NCBI GenBank assembly: GCA_963402885.1
Contig: OY727093.1
Span: 12,659,501-12,723,500, forward strand
Length of the DNA stretch: 64,000 bases
Source of the DNA: Antedon bifida
Lineage: Eukaryota > Echinodermata > Crinoidea > Comatulida > Antedonidae
Direction of reading: 5' to 3'
Shown here: piece after piece, positions 3,456 through 63,668 of the stretch
How the letters are laid out: each line of letters begins with the position of its first letter
Numbering within the stretch: the stretch's first letter is position 1
Made by a program: the position numbers and the translations under genes
The notes under the pieces: generated by a model
The model's database searches: none
What the model saw: only the letters and a program-made list of their open reading frames with translations
Told to the model about the DNA's origin: nothing

Positions 3456-15856
<12,401 letters not shown>

Positions 15857-16525: not shown

Positions 16526-18008
16526 CGCCAACTCTTTCTATTCCTTACTAAGCATAAAGAGACTAAACGTATAAGCACTATAATTATAGTTTATCCGTCC
16601 TGTAATATGCGAGTTCTTTCTGTTAATAGAATAAATAAAAGAAGCAACACAATAATATACAGATTGGCTGTAACGTTAAACACTGCCCTCGGTCGTTTCA
16701 TAAAGTTTATCCGTAATAATAAGTGTGTCCCAAACGCAGTGTTCTACTGAAAGTATATGATGCAGAGTCTCTGTGATTTTTATGTATCAGATATTACACA
16801 TAGTTTAGATCAATTCTCAAACCAATACCAGTTGTCTAGGAAAGAAATATTGCAGCTATAGATATTAATAAATAAAAACGGGCAATTGGTAGAGTGTTTG
16901 AGGGCGCTGGTAATAATATAATCACACATTGTAGACCTATGAGAAGCGTTAGTGTAGTACATAGTGTTGATTGCGAATCAATTTCAATCAGCTTAGTGTT
17001 TGTTTAGATCGCAAGTTGGCAAGCATTTATTTCTAGAGAAAATATTTATTTAGTAAATCAGTTTTAATGATTCCAGCAAATTTACAGTTACTGTACATCG
17101 ACCAAGTTAGAGTTGGATGAAATAGATTTTTTGTTTAAATTGTAGTTATAAGCAATCTGGTACTTCAGTAAAAAAAAAAACACATATAACTACGGTATAC
17201 AACCCCTTCTTTCGGAAACTTGGTATACGTATTCCCGTAAACGAAAGAGGGGCAATATTGTAACACTAGGTCTGGTAACGGAGTACTGAAGGTATCCCTA
17301 AAATATCAGGCTGTATTTAAATTTGAATAATAATTAATGTGTTGAATTGAGGCATACTTTACGTACTATCCAACTAGAATACCGTATAATAAAACACACT
17401 CGTTGTTCCGGTAAGGGCGGAATGTTTGGGCTTCAGAGGATACCCACCTGTAAGCCGGTATATTGGCGAGAAAATATACTGCGGTAGGCCTACCGTTAAC
17501 CAAAACGCGTGACTAGGCTATAGTCTAATTTCAACTTAATATTTGGCAGTGATAGGTTCAATACGTGTAAATAAAAATCAGGCACAGGTACTAAACTGTG
17601 ACGTCATCAGTAACATCTGTGCTTTATAGATTTTAAACAAAGATCGTTTCAAATGATTATTGATTACATCACATGTCAATGTTTTCATGAAGAATCCAGT
17701 ATTGGTATTTCATATTCAGTTAATTAAACTAAAGAAATAAACATATGCATGGAATATATTTCGTAACAGCCGATAATATTTACACTTTGAAGAATACAAT
17801 GGAAGGCTAAAGAACACCGGAATAAACAGGTAGGGCATCCGATTATGTTTGAAATATGCAATAGGCCTAGGTAGGTACTAGTAACCGTATTTACAAGATG
17901 AACAATTTATAAGTGAGTTACCACCAGGCAACAACAATGTAAATTAATGTATTAATTAGTAATAGTATCCCCTGCCTGAGTGTTCAATGGTATTCTCCCC
18001 TCGTCGAA
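16526..18008. repeat. Segmental duplication, right copy
   Basis: Counterpart of 1-1250, beginning CGCCAACTCTTTCTATTCC. It forms the upstream flank of the minus-strand LRR receptor gene. It contains about 190 bases (17527-17718) absent from the left copy. No gene of its own is seen; the apparent reading frame at 16505-16750 has the same text in both copies but no recognisable domain. Confidence 0.9.
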
Positions 18009-41261: not shown

Positions 41262-42819
41262 TCAGATTATACTGGATGAATCGTGTCTGGGTCTGTGTTT
41301 ATAATCAAGGGAATATGCATAATGTTCCACCATCGTGGTCGATAGTTCTACAATCTTATAAACAGCAAAAGCTAAAACGCTAAAGTTCATCTCTTTGTGG
41401 TCCGAAGAGGGCGGTATTTACTTACTGTAAATTATGGATAGATGTTTACCTCTACAATTATTTAACTATGGGAGTAGGTTGATTGAACAGTTAATTATTA
41501 GAATCATTTAGTTGTATTTTCGACATTGTGTTTGTTGACTTTTTTAGGTACAAGAACAGTATTTACAGTTCGTTCCTAATATATTTAACTTAATTCGAAT
41601 GATATACCAGTATAACATCCCACGAACACTGTTAGTAAAGTGGAATTAACCATAGTGGAATAGTTTACTTCCATGATCAGAACAAAGGTAACAATCATGG
41701 TATGTCATTTGAAAGAAAAAATAAATTAAAAAAAACGCTGTTCTTGTCAATTCTATTTTATGTACCTAGTTGTACTCTCCAACATTTTAGGTTCCAGACG
41801 CCGATTCGACTTAAAATTGATATAAATATTTTGGCCCATATGGCGTTTCATACGTACAATACTTTATCTTACTTCTACGAAGAAAACCGAAACGCCGACT
41901 GCTGGGCAACAACATAAAAAAGACATTAAAGATGTATTGTCCCCCTAAAAAAATAATTCTTAACAACATTTTTGTTGAATATGCCATTTTAATTTAACAT
42001 AATAGTTATCCACTTTGACCAAAAAATGGATCGAAAAAAAATGTATTTACCTAAAAAAACTGTAATTTATAGCAAAAAATGGTCAAATTGGCTGCCAGCC
42101 AATGGGTTTTTGGTTGAATTTAACCATTTACTTTGTCATTTTATAAGTGAAAACTTACTTTTTTTCGTTTTTCTTTCTACAGAAGTGATTAACTTTATTA
42201 AAACTACAAAATAACATATTAAAAGTCTGATTTAATTAATCTTCATTTAATGCATCTTTAACTATACTTCGGGCAAGTATACAGTAGTTGTATAGAGATA
42301 ATTGTTCGGTTAACTACTAAAAATAATGATCGGTAATTATAATCCTTCACCACATTCAAGGCTAAACTAAGACGTAACTACGTTTACTTTATCAAAAACA
42401 CATAATGTAATCAATAATTGTAACATGATAAACTTACGTGTATTGGAGTTTGATAAGTACCCCATTCCAATGGGCGGGGTAAACGGTGTTGGACTTAGAT
42501 TCAATTGATGATGATCACGGTGATAGTAGCCAGAGTCTTGAAAACGATCATCTTGATTCTCCAAATATATTCGGTTATCAACTGAATAGGGCCGCTGTGG
42601 TGGTAGACGGTACAATCCACTCAGCGAGTTACTGACAACATCATGTCTTTTTCCAACACGAATTGGAAACTTTGGTACACTGCGTTTTTTAATATATTGT
42701 TCTGCATTTTGCTGCCCTAATATAAAGCATCTTGATGGTGCTAGTAACACGTATAAAACTAAGCACAATAAGTATATGCATCGTTTGGACACGTTGGCGG
42801 TCATTTTGATGTTTTTCAT
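41262..42819 (-). CDS. Gene D: neuropeptide precursor encoding SVPKFPIRV-amide
   Basis: Exon 1 (42819-42438) encodes a signal peptide (CIYLLCLVLYVLLAPSRC core), a spacer QQNAEQYI ending in KKR, then SVPKFPIRV followed by GKR. Flanking dibasic sites and the glycine donor predict one nine-residue amidated peptide. A long tail rich in Tyr, Pro, Arg and Asp follows. The exon ends in phase 1 at a GTAAGT donor. A terminal exon 41371-41262 (acceptor TTTAGCGTTTTAG) joins in frame and continues the same Tyr/His/Arg-rich composition to a stop, giving 163 residues. AATAAA lies at 41156-41151. The intron carries a MITE (41926-42261). The peptide matches no named family that I recognise. Exon 1 is strong, the terminal exon moderate. 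Confidence 0.7.
41926..42261. mobile_element. TTAA-ended MITE, copy 2
   Basis: Left end TTAAAGATGTATTGTCCCCC is intact; the right end is eroded to GCATCTTTAA. The interior matches copies at 5790-6142 and 45653-46008. It lies in the intron of gene D. Confidence 0.85.
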
Positions 42820-42865: not shown

Positions 42866-42873
42866 CTTTTATA
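42866..42873 (-). promoter_or_regulatory. TATA box of gene D
   Basis: A consensus TATAAAAG on the minus strand about 47 bases before the ATG. It places a transcription start near 42840 and supports 42819 as the first coding exon. Confidence 0.65.
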
Positions 42874-45652: not shown

Positions 45653-46008
45653 TTAAAGATGTATTGTCCCCCTGAAACATTTTTTTTTTACATTTTTGTT
45701 TTTGTTGAATATGCCATTTTAATGTCACATAATAATTATCCACTTTGACCAAAAATTGGATCGAAAAAAATTGTATTTACCTGAAAAAACTGGAATTTAT
45801 AGCAAAAAAATGGTCAAATTGGCTGCCAGCCAATGGTTTTTGGTGAAATTTAACCATTTATTTTGTCATTTTGTAAGTGAAAACATTATTTTTTCCTTTT
45901 TTTTTCTACGGAAGTGATTAACTTTATTAAAACTACAAATTAACATATTCAAAGTCTGATTTAATTAATCTTCATTTTTCATATTTTTGGGGGACAATAC
46001 ATCTTTAA
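45653..46008. mobile_element. TTAA-ended MITE, copy 3 (best preserved)
   Basis: Bounded by TTAAAGATGTATTGTCCCCC and GGGGGACAATACATCTTTAA, which are perfect 20-base inverted repeats including TTAA at both ends. The 356-bp interior matches the other two copies and has an internal TTGGCTGCCAGCCAA palindrome. Confidence 0.9.
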
Positions 46009-54507: not shown

Positions 54508-57500
54508 ATCTTTCCGAAACATTTCTAATAGTGGCAAGCGTAGATTATCATAGTCTCTTTTACCTGAAAAGTAAATATCAATAATTAAAGTACATTTTAG
54601 GAAAACAAAGCTTGTTGACATTTTTTCAGAAATTATTTCTGATCTTATCTTATGTAACATTTTCATTATTTACACCAAGAAGGATATTTAGCGTTTAAAG
54701 AACTTTTAGCTGAGACTTCTGGCTTGCGAGTCCCATACGTGGAATGAAATAAAAATAAACCAGTGTTTGGTCATATGAATTTTATTTTAACAATCTGACG
54801 TAACAGACATCAGATCTTCTGTGGCACCACAAAGATGTGCACACTTTGGTATTGGAAATTATTAATTTTAACTACAACTATTAAGGCTACCACACACAAA
54901 CACGATAATCAAATTGTATTATATTTGAACATTGCATGATTTGTATCTATATTGAATGATAGTGTCTTTGAAATTGTGAAGTCAATATCTCAAAGCATTT
55001 TGCTAATGCAATGATTACTTTTGCTGTTGTGTGTATTTATCAGCCACAAACTGCCACCTCGGTTTACGCACGTTTCGCTTATAATTAACCCGGACACTGC
55101 ACTTCAGGTGTTGCCTGTTTCAAAACAGATCAATTAGCCTTCTTACCAATCTATTCTGTGATCAAATATTCTTTAGTGATAATGAGTTTGTATGTGTTTA
55201 CATTACTGATGTCCTCCTTTTAAAGAATCTTTTATAACCTATTCCAGGAAGTAGCAATTTTTTTTGTAGTTATGAGCACTTACCAGCAATATGCGAACTA
55301 CATACTTTAGCAATACAGGATATCTTGTAATTGCATCGTTTGCTACAAGGAACTCTCTTCTCTATTAAAGCACCTTTGAAAAAAAATAAGACACTATTAA
55401 ACGGCGCGTCAATATAAACATACATAGGTCTGCAACTGGCATTTCCAAGAGCAGAGAGTGCTTTTTGTTCACACTTGTTATTTTTTTTGAATTACATTTT
55501 ACAAAATGATAAGCAAACATTTTAAACTCATAAAAACAGTACGATGCCATTAGAAATGTCGATTTCTAACAAGCTGGTGTGTTAATGTGTTCGAGTAATG
55601 ATACTATTATTACATTTCGAATCGAATCGGTAGACCATTCGGTTTTATTGACATTACCGTATAGTGCACCAAGTCAAAGAACACGGCACTTTTCTTAAAT
55701 CAGTTATATCATGGTTAAGTATTATACTCGTGCCGATAACTAAATTGCTTCAAAGATTATTCTATTTGGCAGTGCAATCAAGTTGAATATTTCCATTAGA
55801 TTGGTTTGATGATTAGCCAATTTTGTAATAATATGAAACTGTAATGATATTGTGGTTAATCAATTGGAATCAAGTGATATTGAATATAGATGAAAATCCA
55901 ATTTAGTGTATTGTTTCATTTACATAAATCTGGATGAGAAGCCACACTGTATATAGAATGATTTTAAAGCATTGAATTAAATACATCAATGTTTCCAATT
56001 GGTTAATACCAGACATATTTTTGTTGGGAACATGATGTGTTAGTGTGTGTGGGTTGTGCAATAAGTCGCCATACTTGATATTTCTAATCAAATAATGGCG
56101 CACCCCATGGAGTATACGAAATTCAAACATGATTTCAAAATATAAAATACAGAAATACAGAATGTGCATTGTGCAATAATAAATGTGTAATGATCAATTT
56201 CAATCCATTATGGATTATGCATACGATATTCACTAAAATATAAATACAACATGTTCAGTATTATTTAAATATTTTCAATTAGACCTCCAAACACTAAACA
56301 AGATAGTATACGGAGAATAAGACAATTCAGATTAAAATAAAACGTCCTGAACTAGATCGACTAAAGCTGGTTATATTTTTTTCTTTAAAAATTATCATTT
56401 ATATGACTGTTAATGAGTTTCTCTATTTACATAACGGAATAAAAATCGTTTAAAATATACATCACACGTTGATTACTATTACTTCGACAAAAAAATCCTA
56501 ATAATAATCATTACTGTCTAACACTATAAATTTGTCTAATGATTTCATGGTATTTTTTTTAACCTTGACTGATTTTGCCTGATTGAATATCATGCCTTCT
56601 AATCCACTCCTACTCTCAACTGTGTTTATTAGAAACCAATCAATTTATAACCTATTCGAGACTTTCAATTTAATCTCAAGCAACCTAAGCTTCCAGGCCA
56701 ATTGACCCATTAATGTTGACTTCTTTTTTTTAATAATAAATGTTAGTTTCAAAGACTCGTTCATTCATTTAAGTCAGTTTATCGATTGTGGTTATCTCGT
56801 CGAACAAATTAAGTATCAAACCCCATCTATTTGTTTTCAGCAAAGCATAAAATAGCATAAAATAAGTAAACAACGAGCACATTCACAATACCAACCAGTA
56901 TCTCTTCTCACATCTTATGAACCTATAGGTTCTGTTATTAATTTACTACAGATAAACTAAATACGTAACTAAAACTGTCTCACATTGTGTTTATATAGAA
57001 TTATCGGGAGACATTTCAATTATACAAAACAATATTTAATTATGAATTGTATAACAGCGTGCATATTGCCGTTGACATTGTTTTTAATAAGTTTACAAAA
57101 TAGATAAAGTGGTTGAAATTGACTGATACTTCAGAAAATACAATTTGTCAGTTAACAGTTATCGAGATAATTGCAAAGATAATTCACGTGAAAATCGGTG
57201 CACTCTGTTTTCTACTACAATTATAAACAGACACACAATACGTCCTTATCTTCAAAAGATGAAAAAAATATAAATAAGTTTCAGCATTATCGTAGAATCA
57301 GAATGATATCAGAAGTGTGTGTCATTCACTGTATAATTAAGGTCTAGTGTATCATTTTAGCCAAAAAAGTTCACTTGTTTGTTTAACACTTCAGATGGTT
57401 GTTTTTGAAAGAAATGAAGTCTATTAAAAGGAAAATGTTGTTTATGCGTGCCTCTAATAACTATAGATAACAAATTAGATAGAAGAAAAATACCGAGTAC

Positions 57501-60500
57501 GATGAAGATAACCCATAATCACATTGACATTGGATATAAGCATACGTATTCAAAACTTTATATGTTTAAAATGATCCACACAAGGTAAATTAATATAATG
57601 TTGAATTTAAATGAACAATTACAGTACGCCATTAGATTTTTTTTATCTCATGACAAATGATAATTTAGCTATTTTAATTCACGTTAGCTACAGTACAACG
57701 GTACTGGGAAAATTGTGACTTACTTTTTTTCATATTAAGAACACGATATTCTTTTCTATAAGTACTGCAGGAAATCATCATGCCTGCTTTTTGTAATATG
57801 TTACAGTATACCTTAATTGTAATAAGCGAGTGCTTTGAATTGCTATATAATGTGGTTTAAGCTTGTATAATTCGGAAACGTTCACCCAGACATCACGTGA
57901 CAGTCCCACTAAGTAAACTAATATGTTTTAATTTAGATTAAGCTCAGGCAGAATATCACATTTTATTTGACTAAAGATACTGAATTTCCTTATCGTTAAA
58001 TTACGCCGTGATTTTAGGTTTACATAATGGCTTTAATTAAACGTTGCTATCGGCAACAGCTCAACAACCATTTACTATTTTTTAAAGAAGACTCGGTGCT
58101 GGCAGGCAGGAACAGCATCCCAAAAAGTGAATATGGTAATATCTGTTTTATGAACATCGTTTCTGCTAAAAAGATATTACGTATTTTAAACAACATCGTA
58201 TTTTAATAACGGTATACACTTTCAGTAGAAAACAGATTCTTATTAATGGCAAATCGATAACCAATACATAATTCAAAACAATGATTATTTGATAACCTTG
58301 GATGAACTCTATTCGAATACAATGGGAATGTTGGAAAAACACATAATCCTAATATACTTAATCGCTTCGGCTTTTAAATTCTTGACTCAATCATTCATCT
58401 ATAATTTATTTATATATGCAGTCTTGATGTCAATAGAACTTCAATTAATCACTTAAAGTAATAGCGTTAAAACATAGCAAGATGTCATTTTGAAGTTAAT
58501 CATTTTTTTTATTCAAAGGTTAATACAATATAATTTAGGATCAGCCCTTGTCGTCAGGCATTAAGTGCTGCGGATTAATTTTAAGATAATGTCAATATCA
58601 CCATGTTAAGAAAATTCATTCATTTTCAAACGTAAAAACGGAACAAAAATGGCTTACTGAAACCCGCCCTTTAAATCTATTTGGAATTACGGTGTTGAGC
58701 ACAATGCGCTAACACATGCACTCAGAAAGAATAACGGTTAATATCTTGCTTCAACTTTCCTTAATTGATTTGTTGACTGATAAACGAAGAGAAAATTCAA
58801 AATTAATCAGCATAGTTATACCGCGGTAAACTATTTTTTCCTACTTTCTACTTTATATAAACTGCTGTAACTATATTTTACAAACGTCCATTGTCCGTAC
58901 TGTATAGGTTTTACTTCAGTGTAGAGTTCCAAGATTAAATTAAAAAGCACAAGTATTTGATGGGTCCAGTGGCCATATTCACCAACCACACTTGAGTGAG
59001 ATAGAGTGCTTAAGTGTTTCACTTAAGCTAATGAAAGGTATTCATTTAGATAAAAAAATTATTTAATTTTAAGGGTGTTTCCCTTCGCATAAATGGAAAT
59101 GGTATTTGGAAAATCTGATACAAAATACTGATAATAATTATTGCAGTGTACTACATTTTAGGACGACAGTAAGAAAAATGAGAATATGCCAGATTCATCG
59201 AAAATGTTTCAATCGAAGTTGAATTCCTTGTATTGATATATTTCGACGCTAAATTCAAATTGACAACTGCTCTGTCAGGCCTTTGACTGCTTTCAAACTA
59301 AAATAATGACAAATTCGTCCGCATCATCATCTTACACTATTATTGTTACGATCGCTGCCACTTATTAAATATAGGTATTGGTGGCAAAGTATCATTAGTA
59401 AACAAGTATTCGAATCTATTTGCTGTTAGTGCAATGTGAGACGAAGCTTTACATCAATAAACATAGCATTTATGGTGATGAAATATTGAATTTCATTTGA
59501 TTTATATGAGCTTATATTTCTTATAGTATACAATATAGATATTATATGTAGGCCGAATCCGATATTTAAAGTAAGTTTTAAGAAATCTCAGAAACATAAA
59601 TCTTCATAATTATGTCGAAAAAACTCGATATCGTTCTAGTTTGACAGTATAAATAAAGATTGAAAAATCCGTTAATCCTGCCTTCTCAATTATAAATCTC
59701 GTTTTTAATTCTTTCTGGAATAGGTTGGTTAAGGTAGATTATTCTAGGTGGAAGAGATAGCCTGCAAAAGTCGGTTTTGTTTGTAAGCATGTAGACTTTA
59801 GTAAATGATGAAAGTAATATAAATAAATATAATAATAGTAATAAATATATATAAGAAACAAACACTAAAGCAAAGACAGGTTCATGCTGCGATTGAGCTT
59901 GGATATCTAGACAGTTTGCGACACGGATACTCGTGAAACTTTCTACTGGAGGTTTGTCAGACCTGATTAGATCTTGTTAAACCGGTGTGTACTCACGTCT
60001 TGATGCAATCAAGTAACGTGTAACGGTAAACTGGTAAACGTAAAAGTGGATAGAAGAGAAAGAGAAATCAAGCGAAATAGGGCACTAATAGTGCGCTCTA
60101 AAGATATTTGGATATAGTATGGTTAAAAATTAATGTAAAACATAATTAACTAAGACGCCAAATGTATATGGATAAAAAGGTGAACAGTTCATTAAAATGG
60201 GCGATCAGTCATGTAACGATATTTAACGCTTCCGGCCTAAGAATATCTCAGATCACTGACAGTTTTAATTAACATGAATCAAAGTTTAAATCGGCGCAAT
60301 TGGAAATGGAAAAAACATTTAGCGATTTTCTGTTTGTTATTAAAAATGTTGTGTCTAATATATGCACATCAGTGTAAAAATAAATTTGTGTTCGTTTAAT
60401 GTACACGTACTAAAAGAGAGATTTGTTGCAGTCACCGGCTAATGTTACATATTTATTATACTAAAGAAACACGTTTAATACAAGTTGAAAACTACAGTAT

Positions 60501-63500
60501 AACACAAAAAATAGTTATTTTTATTTATCTCACTAAAATTGTCCAAAGTTTAAAATAGTATGTACATGTGTTAGTGAGGTTTGTTTAAATTTTGAATGTT
60601 TCCTTTGTAAATTAAACTCAATATCACTTGTCAAATTATTAAGTATTGATACCATAAATAGAAGCCTTCTTCTTTTTAATTACGTAGAACGATTCTTATG
60701 AATACATGACTTAATTGGCTCTCAGAACAATTCCATTATCTGAGCCGATATTAGTGTGTTATGCATTTAAAACACTTCTTTTATAAACATAAGCTTCACT
60801 TCTCTATTAGTCCTTCTCTTTCAAACGCTACACAAACAATTGTTTTAAGGCGTGATTTATGTTAAAATAATTATTATTGAAGGTATCAGAAACACTACTA
60901 AAACTAGTTTTAATGATGATATATATATTCGGTCTTCCTAGTTGATGTATTGTTGTTAACCAATTAAGATTTCTCTTACTTCGGTTGCATTCGGTGTGTA
61001 ATTCAATAACTAATAACCATATATATACACTTAGATTTATATACAACATTTTGATAAAAACTATACGAATTTGACCGAAATTTACCTAAATCAACCCAAA
61101 AATTTTCATATTTTGTTGCGAGCAATGTTACACGCACACTTCAATGCAACATAATTCTTACTAAAATTCAGGTTACCTGAAACTGGATTGATAATAAAGT
61201 CGTTTCCCATGTCTAATGTTTTGCTGTCTGTTTTTATTTCTTTCTTTTATGTGATAAAATTGTAAAAGTGGATCACAGATACATAATAAAGTTTTTTGAA
61301 AATCTTTTTTTTCTCTTTGAATTAAGCCTCGTAACCAGTTGTAGACATTTTAATGGAAACTGTAAAAATATCAAGGTGAGGTAGATATTAGGTATTTATC
61401 ATCGGTTTTATTCTTTAAATTTCCAATATAATTAAACTTGACTATTTCTTTATCTTATCAATAAAAACGTTTTTCAAATCATTTTTTATACATATATGTT
61501 CAATTAAAATCCCCATTAGCAAATACAAAAATGTATATTGTATAGAATATCGAGTTACAGGTTGGCATGTTATATTTAATCTTTAGGCAATTATTCCGAA
61601 TTGGATTTCCGAAAGGACAATCATATGAACTATACAAACTATGATTTGTATATGAATTTACCTTAATAAAACGGTGACGTGACATTTATTTATGGTTAAT
61701 GAATTTAATTGAAGGTCATTTTACGAGAAAAATGAATTTATCTTGAATGATTGAAAAATTTTACAAAATGTTTTGTATAAGAAAAAACTAATTACACTTA
61801 CTTCTATTGCACGTCAATTGATTTTGAAACTGTTTTCAAACTTAAATGAGTTACTGCACATTGTTAGCTGGATATCTTTTCTATATGTCTACCAAAAATG
61901 TATTTTCATTTTCACCGAAAGCAATTCGATTAGTTTTTTGTTTAAAATTTCAATATGGAATACAACAAGGGAAATTATCAATTAGGCTTGTAATGAATGA
62001 ACAACATTGTAGATCGTGCGATCACACACCTTTAAATGATCTGGGGCGCTATGTTTCCTCAATCATGATGCAAATGCAATGAAACCAATTCTAACCTTAA
62101 ATTGGAATACATACTTGAATGCTAATAATGCTCTTGTCTACAACCAGTATTCATGAAGAAGACAATTGTTTAGTGAAAAGATGAACAAAAAAAAAAAAAA
62201 AAAAAGACATACATAACTGAGTGTTTGACGTACTGAACTAAAAATATTGTTGGAAGGAATGGTAACTGAAAATCTCGTATTTGCATAAACAATGGGGTTT
62301 TCAAAAATATAAAAATATTGATTAATGGTAATGTTGATGTATGATATAAATTAATTATGTGCCAACAATGTACCACAAGCAGTTGACAACACTTATGATT
62401 GATATTTTAATATTATGTTAGAAACAATGATTGATTTAATACAGAGTGTACCAGATGCTCTTTGTATTTATAAACCAACAAAAGTGATTAATTAATAATG
62501 ATGATGGCGTGAAAAAATATAATAATGAATTAATCATTTTAGTAAATAAAATTCCATGACAAGCAATACTGTATGAATGACAGATTTACATGCACCTAAA
62601 GATGTGACGAAAAGAATTGATTTGTTAAGGTTGAGGAAACGATTACGAGAAAATGACCACAATGATAACATTAATTGATGATGTCAACTTTGGCAATTTT
62701 AAGAATATTAAACATAGCATTGATTAAAGAGTATAGTTCATTATGAAAACTCAATATCAAATCGATTATGCTATCTAGCAATAACTATAAGAATATATGA
62801 TTACTATTTATTTGGTGTATAATGAACTTAAAAGAGTAATACAGTTAATAATGTGCTGAAGACTGATCCAATTCAACCGTAAATTATTGATACTCGACCT
62901 AAATAAAATAAGTGGATATAAACTAAACCTAGTTAACCTGAAAAGAGGAAATCAATTATTCTTTTAAAGACAATATTACTAAATTGTGTTCGCTTTTAAT
63001 CTATAAAGGCATTTATATCCGGTTCCTTTCTATTATAGACACTACACTATTTTAGAGAATTTGTACAAGAACAAAAATACAGAAAATGTGAAATTAATGT
63101 GAAACGGTAAAGATAACAAAAAATATGCGATGGTGAAAACAATTAACCTAAACAAAATTCCCACAGAAAGCAGGTTTGGAGTTCAATTCTCCGTAATATT
63201 TTCACTTTACATGATTTTCATCTTAACCGTTTTAAATTCTCTTTATATCGACCTTAAATAAAGTGAGGCAAATCTAAAAGTGTCTGTGTTTGTGCTATCT
63301 AAGTAAAGCATAAAATATCCTGGTTTTTTTTAAATTGCTCGTTTGAAAAATACTTACATTCACCTACAATAATGTACTTCAATTAAACAAACACATATTT
63401 TATGAAAAATGAACTATTATGCTTTGTTTATAAACGGTATTTAAATCTTAGGTTACAGTTACCTGTTATCGAATTCTTATACGGTCTCATAGTACGTATT

Positions 63501-63597
63501 TAAGAAAAAATGCAAACATGAGTATATGACGAATAACGTACTTACCTGTTGTACACATGAACATGAAAATAAGGCAAATTAACGTTGTGTGTTTCAT
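54508..63597 (-). CDS. Gene A: cysteine-rich amidated peptide precursor
   Basis: Exons 63597-63546, 55373-55284 and 54563-54508 join in phase. Exon 1 is a signal peptide, MKHTTLICLIFMFMCTTG, with a strong donor and a TATA box 75 bases upstream. Exon 2 (phase 1 to 1) reads ALIEKR followed by a 23-residue peptide starting VPCSKRC and ending KVCSSHIA, with four cysteines able to form two disulfides. The exon 2/3 junction rebuilds GKR, an amidation plus dibasic site. Exon 3 continues DYDNLRLPLLEMFRKD and ends in phase 0 at GTAAGT. A further exon is expected but not identified; reading through gives a stop at 54471-54469. An internal KR sits between the first two cysteines. Long introns (8.2 kb and 0.7 kb). 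The family is unknown to me. Confidence 0.6.
55600..63500. other. Long first intron of gene A, otherwise unremarkable
   Basis: AT-rich DNA. A poly(A) run of about 19 bases lies at 62187-62206 and may be the tail of a retroposed insert, but no flanking duplication is obvious. A plus frame at 61984-62082 (contains QHCRSCDHTPLNDLGRYVS) has no recognised homologue. Confidence 0.4.
61033..61049 (-). other. Alternative signal-peptide-like first exon start within gene A intron
   Basis: From 61049 the minus strand reads MLYINLSVYIWLLVIELHTE, a signal-peptide-like start, and a GTAAGA donor follows at about 60980 in phase 1. It would splice in frame to the exon at 55373. There is no clear TATA box. 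If real it is an alternative first exon of gene A. Reading through instead gives RSKR, NLNWLTTIHQL and GR, a weak amidated-peptide look. Confidence 0.2.
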
Positions 63598-63668
63598 GAT
63601 GATTGAAAATGGTCTGCACCCGTATAGTAACATTCAAATTTGAATCAAAGCTGTGAATTCTCGGAAAC

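Follow-up and report, generated by a model that had tools for sequence, protein, structure and literature searches.

Gene A and its predicted peptide

The minus strand of the window, by which we mean the whole stretch of 64,000 nucleotides analysed, carries a real-looking gene, as judged from its reading frames and signals, for a secreted amidated peptide with four cysteines. The elements of this candidate, designated gene A, are as follows.

63675-63669, minus: TATATAA box, beginning 78 bases before the ATG (63597)
63597-63546, minus: exon 1, coding for MKHTTLICLIFMFMCTT, which resembles a signal peptide; one base of a Gly codon completes the exon, in phase 1, at CAG/GTAAGT
55373-55284, minus: exon 2, coding for (G)ALIEKR, VPCSKRCNYKISCIAKVCSSHIA and the first base of a Gly codon; donor CTG/GTAAGT
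55353-55285, minus: predicted mature peptide VPCSKRCNYKISCIAKVCSSHIA-NH2, 23 amino acids, four Cys, charge of +4 from Lys and Arg
54563-54508, minus: exon 3, coding for the remainder of Gly, KR and DYDNLRLPLLEMFRKD; donor GAT/GTAAGT
54215-54186, minus: proposed exon 4, coding for AWNTNYMDK and a stop
53782-53777, minus: possible poly-A signal, the first AATAAA beyond exon 4

The sequence-only reading of this DNA had described three exons joining in phase, and translation of the minus strand reproduces the coordinates and frames it gave. The TATA box (TATATAA) and the GTAAGT donors that it cited, the latter three in number, are present in the sequence, as is the 23-residue peptide with the spacing C-x3-C-x5-C-x4-C, a pattern that a six-frame translation of the window shows in no other place. 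The peptide is flanked by EKR before and, across an in-phase intron, by GKR after, which amounts to a dibasic site on either side and a Gly for amidation. The codon of this Gly is split after its first base, and GKR therefore exists only in the spliced form, where it is rebuilt exactly, as had been stated; the unspliced DNA reads GKC in frame at the same position. The mature peptide is predicted to end in an Ala-amide, and VPCSKRCNYKISCIAKVCSSHIA-NH2, amidated and with two disulfides, has a predicted monoisotopic mass of 2504.23. An internal KR lies between the first and second cysteines. The tail behind the peptide, previously described as acidic, has a net charge of only -1 and is nearly neutral, so that the description overstates the case.

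The putative signal peptide in exon 1 reaches a best 10-residue mean of 3.1 in the hydropathy scan, and a second in-frame ATG is found upstream at 63633. The donors of exons 1, 2 and 3 score 9.0, 7.0 and 3.5, and the acceptors of exons 2, 3 and 4 score 2.5, 4.4 and 4.4, under generic splice-site weights not derived from this organism; the acceptor of exon 2 (TTTTTTTTCAAAG) is the weakest. The first intron spans 8.2 kb. As exon 3 ends at a donor, the three-exon model stayed open. Seven in-phase acceptors are listed from 54470 to 52500, that of the proposed exon 4 being the nearest, and some tail would result from any of them. With this exon the predicted product is MKHTTLICLIFMFMCTTGALIEKRVPCSKRCNYKISCIAKVCSSHIAGKRDYDNLRLPLLEMFRKDAWNTNYMDK, 75 residues followed by a stop. 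The A+T-rich stretch around the 3' end of the gene contains nine listed matches to A[AT]TAAA.

Database searches with gene A return little. The product of the three exons matches no Pfam family at E values of 1 or below, and the sequence search of the PDB gives only a chance match of the precursor to vitronectin (E = 3) and no match for the mature peptide. Text searches of the literature with stretches of the predicted products of gene A and of genes B and C (the latter two being described below), including KFPIRV and FPIRVamide, produce no match, and searches for notations of the cysteine pattern lead only to a tenascin paper, unrelated by its title. Viral contigs searched for a close relative of gene A contain three pattern matches, none of them confirmed. 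In the literature on amidated four-cysteine echinoderm neuropeptides, as sampled in extracts, PMC9793003 alone describes such peptides; the searched terms are absent from PMC12002301, which deals with the bombesin type. As far as Pfam, the PDB and the text searches reach, the earlier statement that the cysteine spacing fits no family stands. Amidated peptides with four cysteines have, however, been predicted in crinoids before, namely PCNP6 and PCNP7, according to the relevant part of PMC9793003.

Neighbouring candidate genes and the surrounding window

Three further candidate secreted-peptide precursors, genes B, C and D, lie on the minus strand within about 32 kb of gene A.

42819-42438, minus: candidate gene B; signal-like start, KKR-SVPKFPIRV-GKR, exon ending at GTAAGT; TATAAA at 42873
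40868-40676, minus: candidate gene C; signal-like start, NKR-QACKVTNGRMVCSKHYPLPAMRSLRNDIAPGVE..., two-Cys peptide; ends in phase 1 at GTAAGA
34752-34644, 31843-31800, 31594-31487 and 31402-31346, minus: candidate gene D; signal, ARKPIF-GKR, tail and stop

In genes B and D a short linear peptide precedes GKR, an arrangement seen in neuropeptides. In gene D, ARKPIF-GKR comes straight after the signal peptide, and an intron in phase 1 immediately precedes the GKR. Gene B has no Pfam match, and gene C has no significant one (the best is Hyccin, E 0.12). The exon scan offers a single in-phase candidate, 37316-37248, for the next exon of gene C. An assignment of gene C to the calcitonin type, suggested by a starfish sequence, is not supported, as no Pro-amide end, which extracts on that type describe, turned up for the gene, traced here through one exon. 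TATA-like boxes occur within 150 bases upstream of B, C and D, which is unremarkable in A+T-rich DNA.

The tails of A and D share the appearance of G-K-R-x-Y-D ... L-P ... L-E-x-F. Over the whole tails this similarity is not significant, as 33.6 % of 2000 shuffles are as good; for the first 16/20 tail residues the proportion falls to 0.7 % of 20000 shuffles, the stretch having been picked by hand after the fact. It is conceivable, though we hold it doubtful, that gene A founds a lineage-restricted family of amidated two-disulfide hormones with the spacing C-x3-C-x5-C-x4-C, within a cluster of common origin formed by at least the four genes A to D, whose members would have diverged beyond recognition while D kept an IFamide-like form. 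If real, a group of dissimilar precursor genes within 32 kb would allow the origin of new peptide families to be followed.

The palindrome TAGGCCTA is strongly over-represented in the whole window, with 22 copies and three of its 6-mers at 9.4-9.5 times expectation, and this motif is usual in echinoderm DNA. The G+C content across the window ranges from 29 to 35 % in 4-kb bins; genome values in the accessible part of PMC7351957 are 33.22 % for Anneissia japonica, a feather star, and 33.71 % for a sea urchin. The motif and the base composition make an echinoderm source plausible, but the G+C content is no marker of crinoids in particular, which are one candidate among others.

Other features were observed outside the candidate genes. 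A large open reading frame at 5375-3456 on the minus strand matches DUF7630 (E 3.4e-8) and has a sub-threshold ephrin-receptor-like match; exons around 7565-7951 and at 8.8, 13.3 and 15.9 kb, possibly parts of one gene with it, have a leucine-rich-repeat look on visual inspection. A direct repeat joins 1-970 and 16526-17452, approximately 16.5 kb apart, in pieces that are 87-100 % identical. A dispersed repeat, possibly a mobile element, is present in three copies (5805-6142, 41942-42248 and 45672-46008), the first of which adjoins a GIY-YIG-like open reading frame at 6139-6534 (E 1.3e-5). The open reading frame at 1844-2209 on the plus strand matches ALKBH8_N (E 2.2e-9) and may be the end of a retroelement reading frame. 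Two tRNA-like matches, at 7017-7088 on the minus strand (47.3 bits) and 7286-7354 on the plus strand (31.3 bits), are located in or beside an inverted repeat.

The exon chain in shuffled sequence

The chain sought in the real and shuffled windows begins with a first exon resembling a signal peptide; the exon joining it in phase must contain a dibasic pair, and the one after that must open with a split G[KR][KR]. The real window contains one chain of the gene A type. Shuffled windows were generated with a Markov model of order 3 in a run of 300, and with orders 3 and 4 alternating in a run of 1000. At strict settings no shuffle contains the chain in either run (0/300 and 0/1000), with the qualification that the thresholds were set after the exon scores were known and that Markov sequence differs from real intron. 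At relaxed settings some chain appears in 13 of 1000 shuffles, one with at least two cysteines in 1/1000, and one with at least four in 0/1000. Single exons may arise by chance now and then, as a lone four-cysteine exon after a dibasic pair is present in 6 of 300 shuffles, and a lone exon opening with a split G[KR][KR] in 24 of 300. The joined chain is much rarer in shuffles than either exon alone. The reading frames, splice signals, and cleavage and amidation motifs of gene A are present in the DNA, and their combination exceeds the shuffled level.

The exon scan of the window comprises 24 exon-and-frame combinations for the plus strand and 46 for the minus strand, and exons 2 and 3 are among these 46; its details are shown only for intervals with a dibasic pair, at least three cysteines or at least 50 residues. 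At strict settings exon 2 is the window's only exon-like interval in which a [KR]R pair is followed by at least two cysteines. The start of gene A is included in the 100 signal-like ATG starts listed. Relaxed settings yield a two-exon start like that of gene D in 21 of 1000 shuffles, and strict settings miss gene D itself. Codon usage does not discriminate between the exons and open non-coding stretches: the score of the gene A exons is reached by 25 % of 3000 open sets drawn at random, and the exon of gene B receives a negative score.

The same results bear on the alternative that the exon chain of gene A arose by coincidence or belongs to a dead gene. The uninformative codon test, the weak acceptor of exon 2, the occasional relaxed chain when cysteines are ignored, the frequency of the lone exons, and the choice of thresholds with knowledge of the exons all lean towards it. 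They are opposed by the empty strict run of 1000, by the absence of a four-cysteine chain from as many relaxed shuffles, and by the TATA box, the three GTAAGT donors and the in-phase exon bearing a stop. We consider this alternative very unlikely.

A probable peptide hormone among known amidated peptides

The reading that we favour, and which appears reasonably probable on the sequence features described, is that gene A codes for the precursor of a single peptide, a hormone or neuropeptide, in an echinoderm-like animal. Its signal peptide would direct the product into the secretory pathway, where two disulfides would form within the four-cysteine segment. A prohormone convertase would cleave after EKR and after GKR, a carboxypeptidase would remove the basic residues, and a peptidylglycine amidating enzyme would convert the exposed Gly into the C-terminal amide, yielding VPCSKRCNYKISCIAKVCSSHIA-NH2. 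The target of the amidated peptide would be a receptor in the membrane, probably of the G-protein-coupled kind. For gene A we infer transcription and splicing, processing of the precursor with formation of the disulfides, a receptor, and expression in the nervous system. The reading is favoured by the presence of further candidate secreted-peptide genes on the same strand, two of them with GKR, and counting against it are the weak acceptor of exon 2 together with the 8.2-kb first intron, the uninformative codon usage, and the internal KR, which could be cut.

The sequence-only reading had taken gene A for a neuropeptide precursor. The shuffle controls and the neighbouring genes support the part of this claim that concerns a gene for a secreted, dibasically cleaved and amidated peptide; the neuropeptide nature is just plausible, since a cationic amidated antimicrobial peptide with two disulfides looks alike at this level. 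Gene A might accordingly encode a beta-hairpin antimicrobial peptide of this sort, cut and amidated in the same manner and acting on microbial membranes. The charge of the peptide comes to about +5 when the free N-terminus and the amidated C-terminus are added to the +4 of Lys and Arg. The precursors of tachyplesins, polyphemusins and gomesin carry Gly-Lys-Arg and a C-terminal propiece. Arthropod beta-hairpins have equal cysteine arms, whereas those of gene A, of 3 and 4 residues, are unequal, which counts against this reading. The beta-hairpin class, as delimited in the available portion of PMC13001179, has 11-25 residues, a charge of 1-8 and cysteine pairs at least three residues apart, and gene A falls within these ranges with its 23 residues, net charge of about +5 and spacing of 3-5-4. 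The two disulfides and C-terminal amide of tachyplesins, polyphemusins and gomesin, described in extracts of PMC13001179 and PMC4410394, point in the same direction. On the other side, the amphipathicity of the peptide is unremarkable: of 2000 shuffles, 14.6 % equal it as a helix and 16.1 % as a strand. Genes B and D nearby resemble linear neuropeptide precursors, and the review of marine antimicrobial peptides PMC10608444 names, in the part consulted, no four-cysteine echinoderm peptide. An antimicrobial role seems rather unlikely to us; if it held, gene A would extend a class in which the best-known peptides with two disulfides belong to other phyla.

The hormone-precursor reading overlaps with a narrower one, which we therefore weigh separately: gene A might be an ortholog of AnjapPCNP6, AmedPCNP7 or another listed precursor, and so be known in kind and perhaps in sequence. 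Section 36 of PMC9793003 presents AnjapPCNP6 and AmedPCNP7 as predicted amidated peptides of crinoids with four cysteines each, in spacings that differ from one another; an amidated four-cysteine peptide is, by description, what gene A would encode as well, and the G+C content of the window is near the feather star value. Against orthology, SVPKFPIRV-NH2 and ARKPIF-NH2 match none of the PCNP peptides spelled out in that section, and the literature text search with the strings of genes A, B and C found no counterpart. We regard orthology as unlikely. As far as the predicted product allows a judgement, gene A is ordinary in kind, matches no family in the searches made and has a possibly new sequence. 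Its interest lies mainly in this sequence and in the surrounding cluster. If transcribed, gene A would add a peptide of defined mass, 2504.23, to the echinoderm-type peptides without known relatives, and orphan peptides of such kind can be matched against orphan receptors.

Several established peptide types were considered for gene A and set aside. The ambulacrarian orexin type (ArOXP, AjOXP, AmOXP) requires six cysteines, of which the first two are adjacent in eleutherozoans according to passages of PMC4772807, PMC9793003 and PMC6586643, and the echinoderm eclosion-hormone type likewise has six conserved cysteines in the corresponding passages of PMC5627052 and PMC9793003, against four in gene A. 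The echinoderm calcitonin type, as outlined in source excerpts, combines two N-terminal cysteines with a Pro-amide, and gene A has four cysteines and an Ala-amide. The relaxin/insulin A-chain motif CCxxxCxxxxxxxxC, in the form excerpted, is not fitted by the 3-5-4 spacing.

Likenesses of a more general kind extend to a number of these systems. Orexin-type precursors share with gene A a multi-cysteine peptide and an amidation Gly in a secreted precursor, while differing, as the orexin extracts describe them, in having six cysteines where gene A has four at spacings of 3, 5 and 4. Several amidated cysteine-containing peptides are known only from echinoderms, according to parts of PMC4772807 and section 36 of PMC9793003. 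Among the peptides excerpted, Arnp25 of the starfish and Ajnp25 of the sea cucumber resemble gene A in that an amidated cysteine peptide stands close after the signal peptide, but have two cysteines in place of four. The placement of ARKPIF in gene D recalls the IFamide peptides, SIFamide and Ovnp27; the latter, of brittle stars, follows right after the signal peptide, and its authors consider convergence with SIFamides possible, as stated in an extract of PMC5627052. Tachyplesins, polyphemusins and gomesin are, in the excerpts at hand, short cationic peptides with two disulfides and a C-terminal amide, as gene A is by prediction, and gene A differs from beta-hairpin peptides in its unequal cysteine arms and its modest amphipathicity. 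AnjapPCNP6 and AmedPCNP7, compared by their partial description only, are like gene A in that each is a single amidated four-cysteine peptide, with two predicted disulfides, carried in a secreted precursor.
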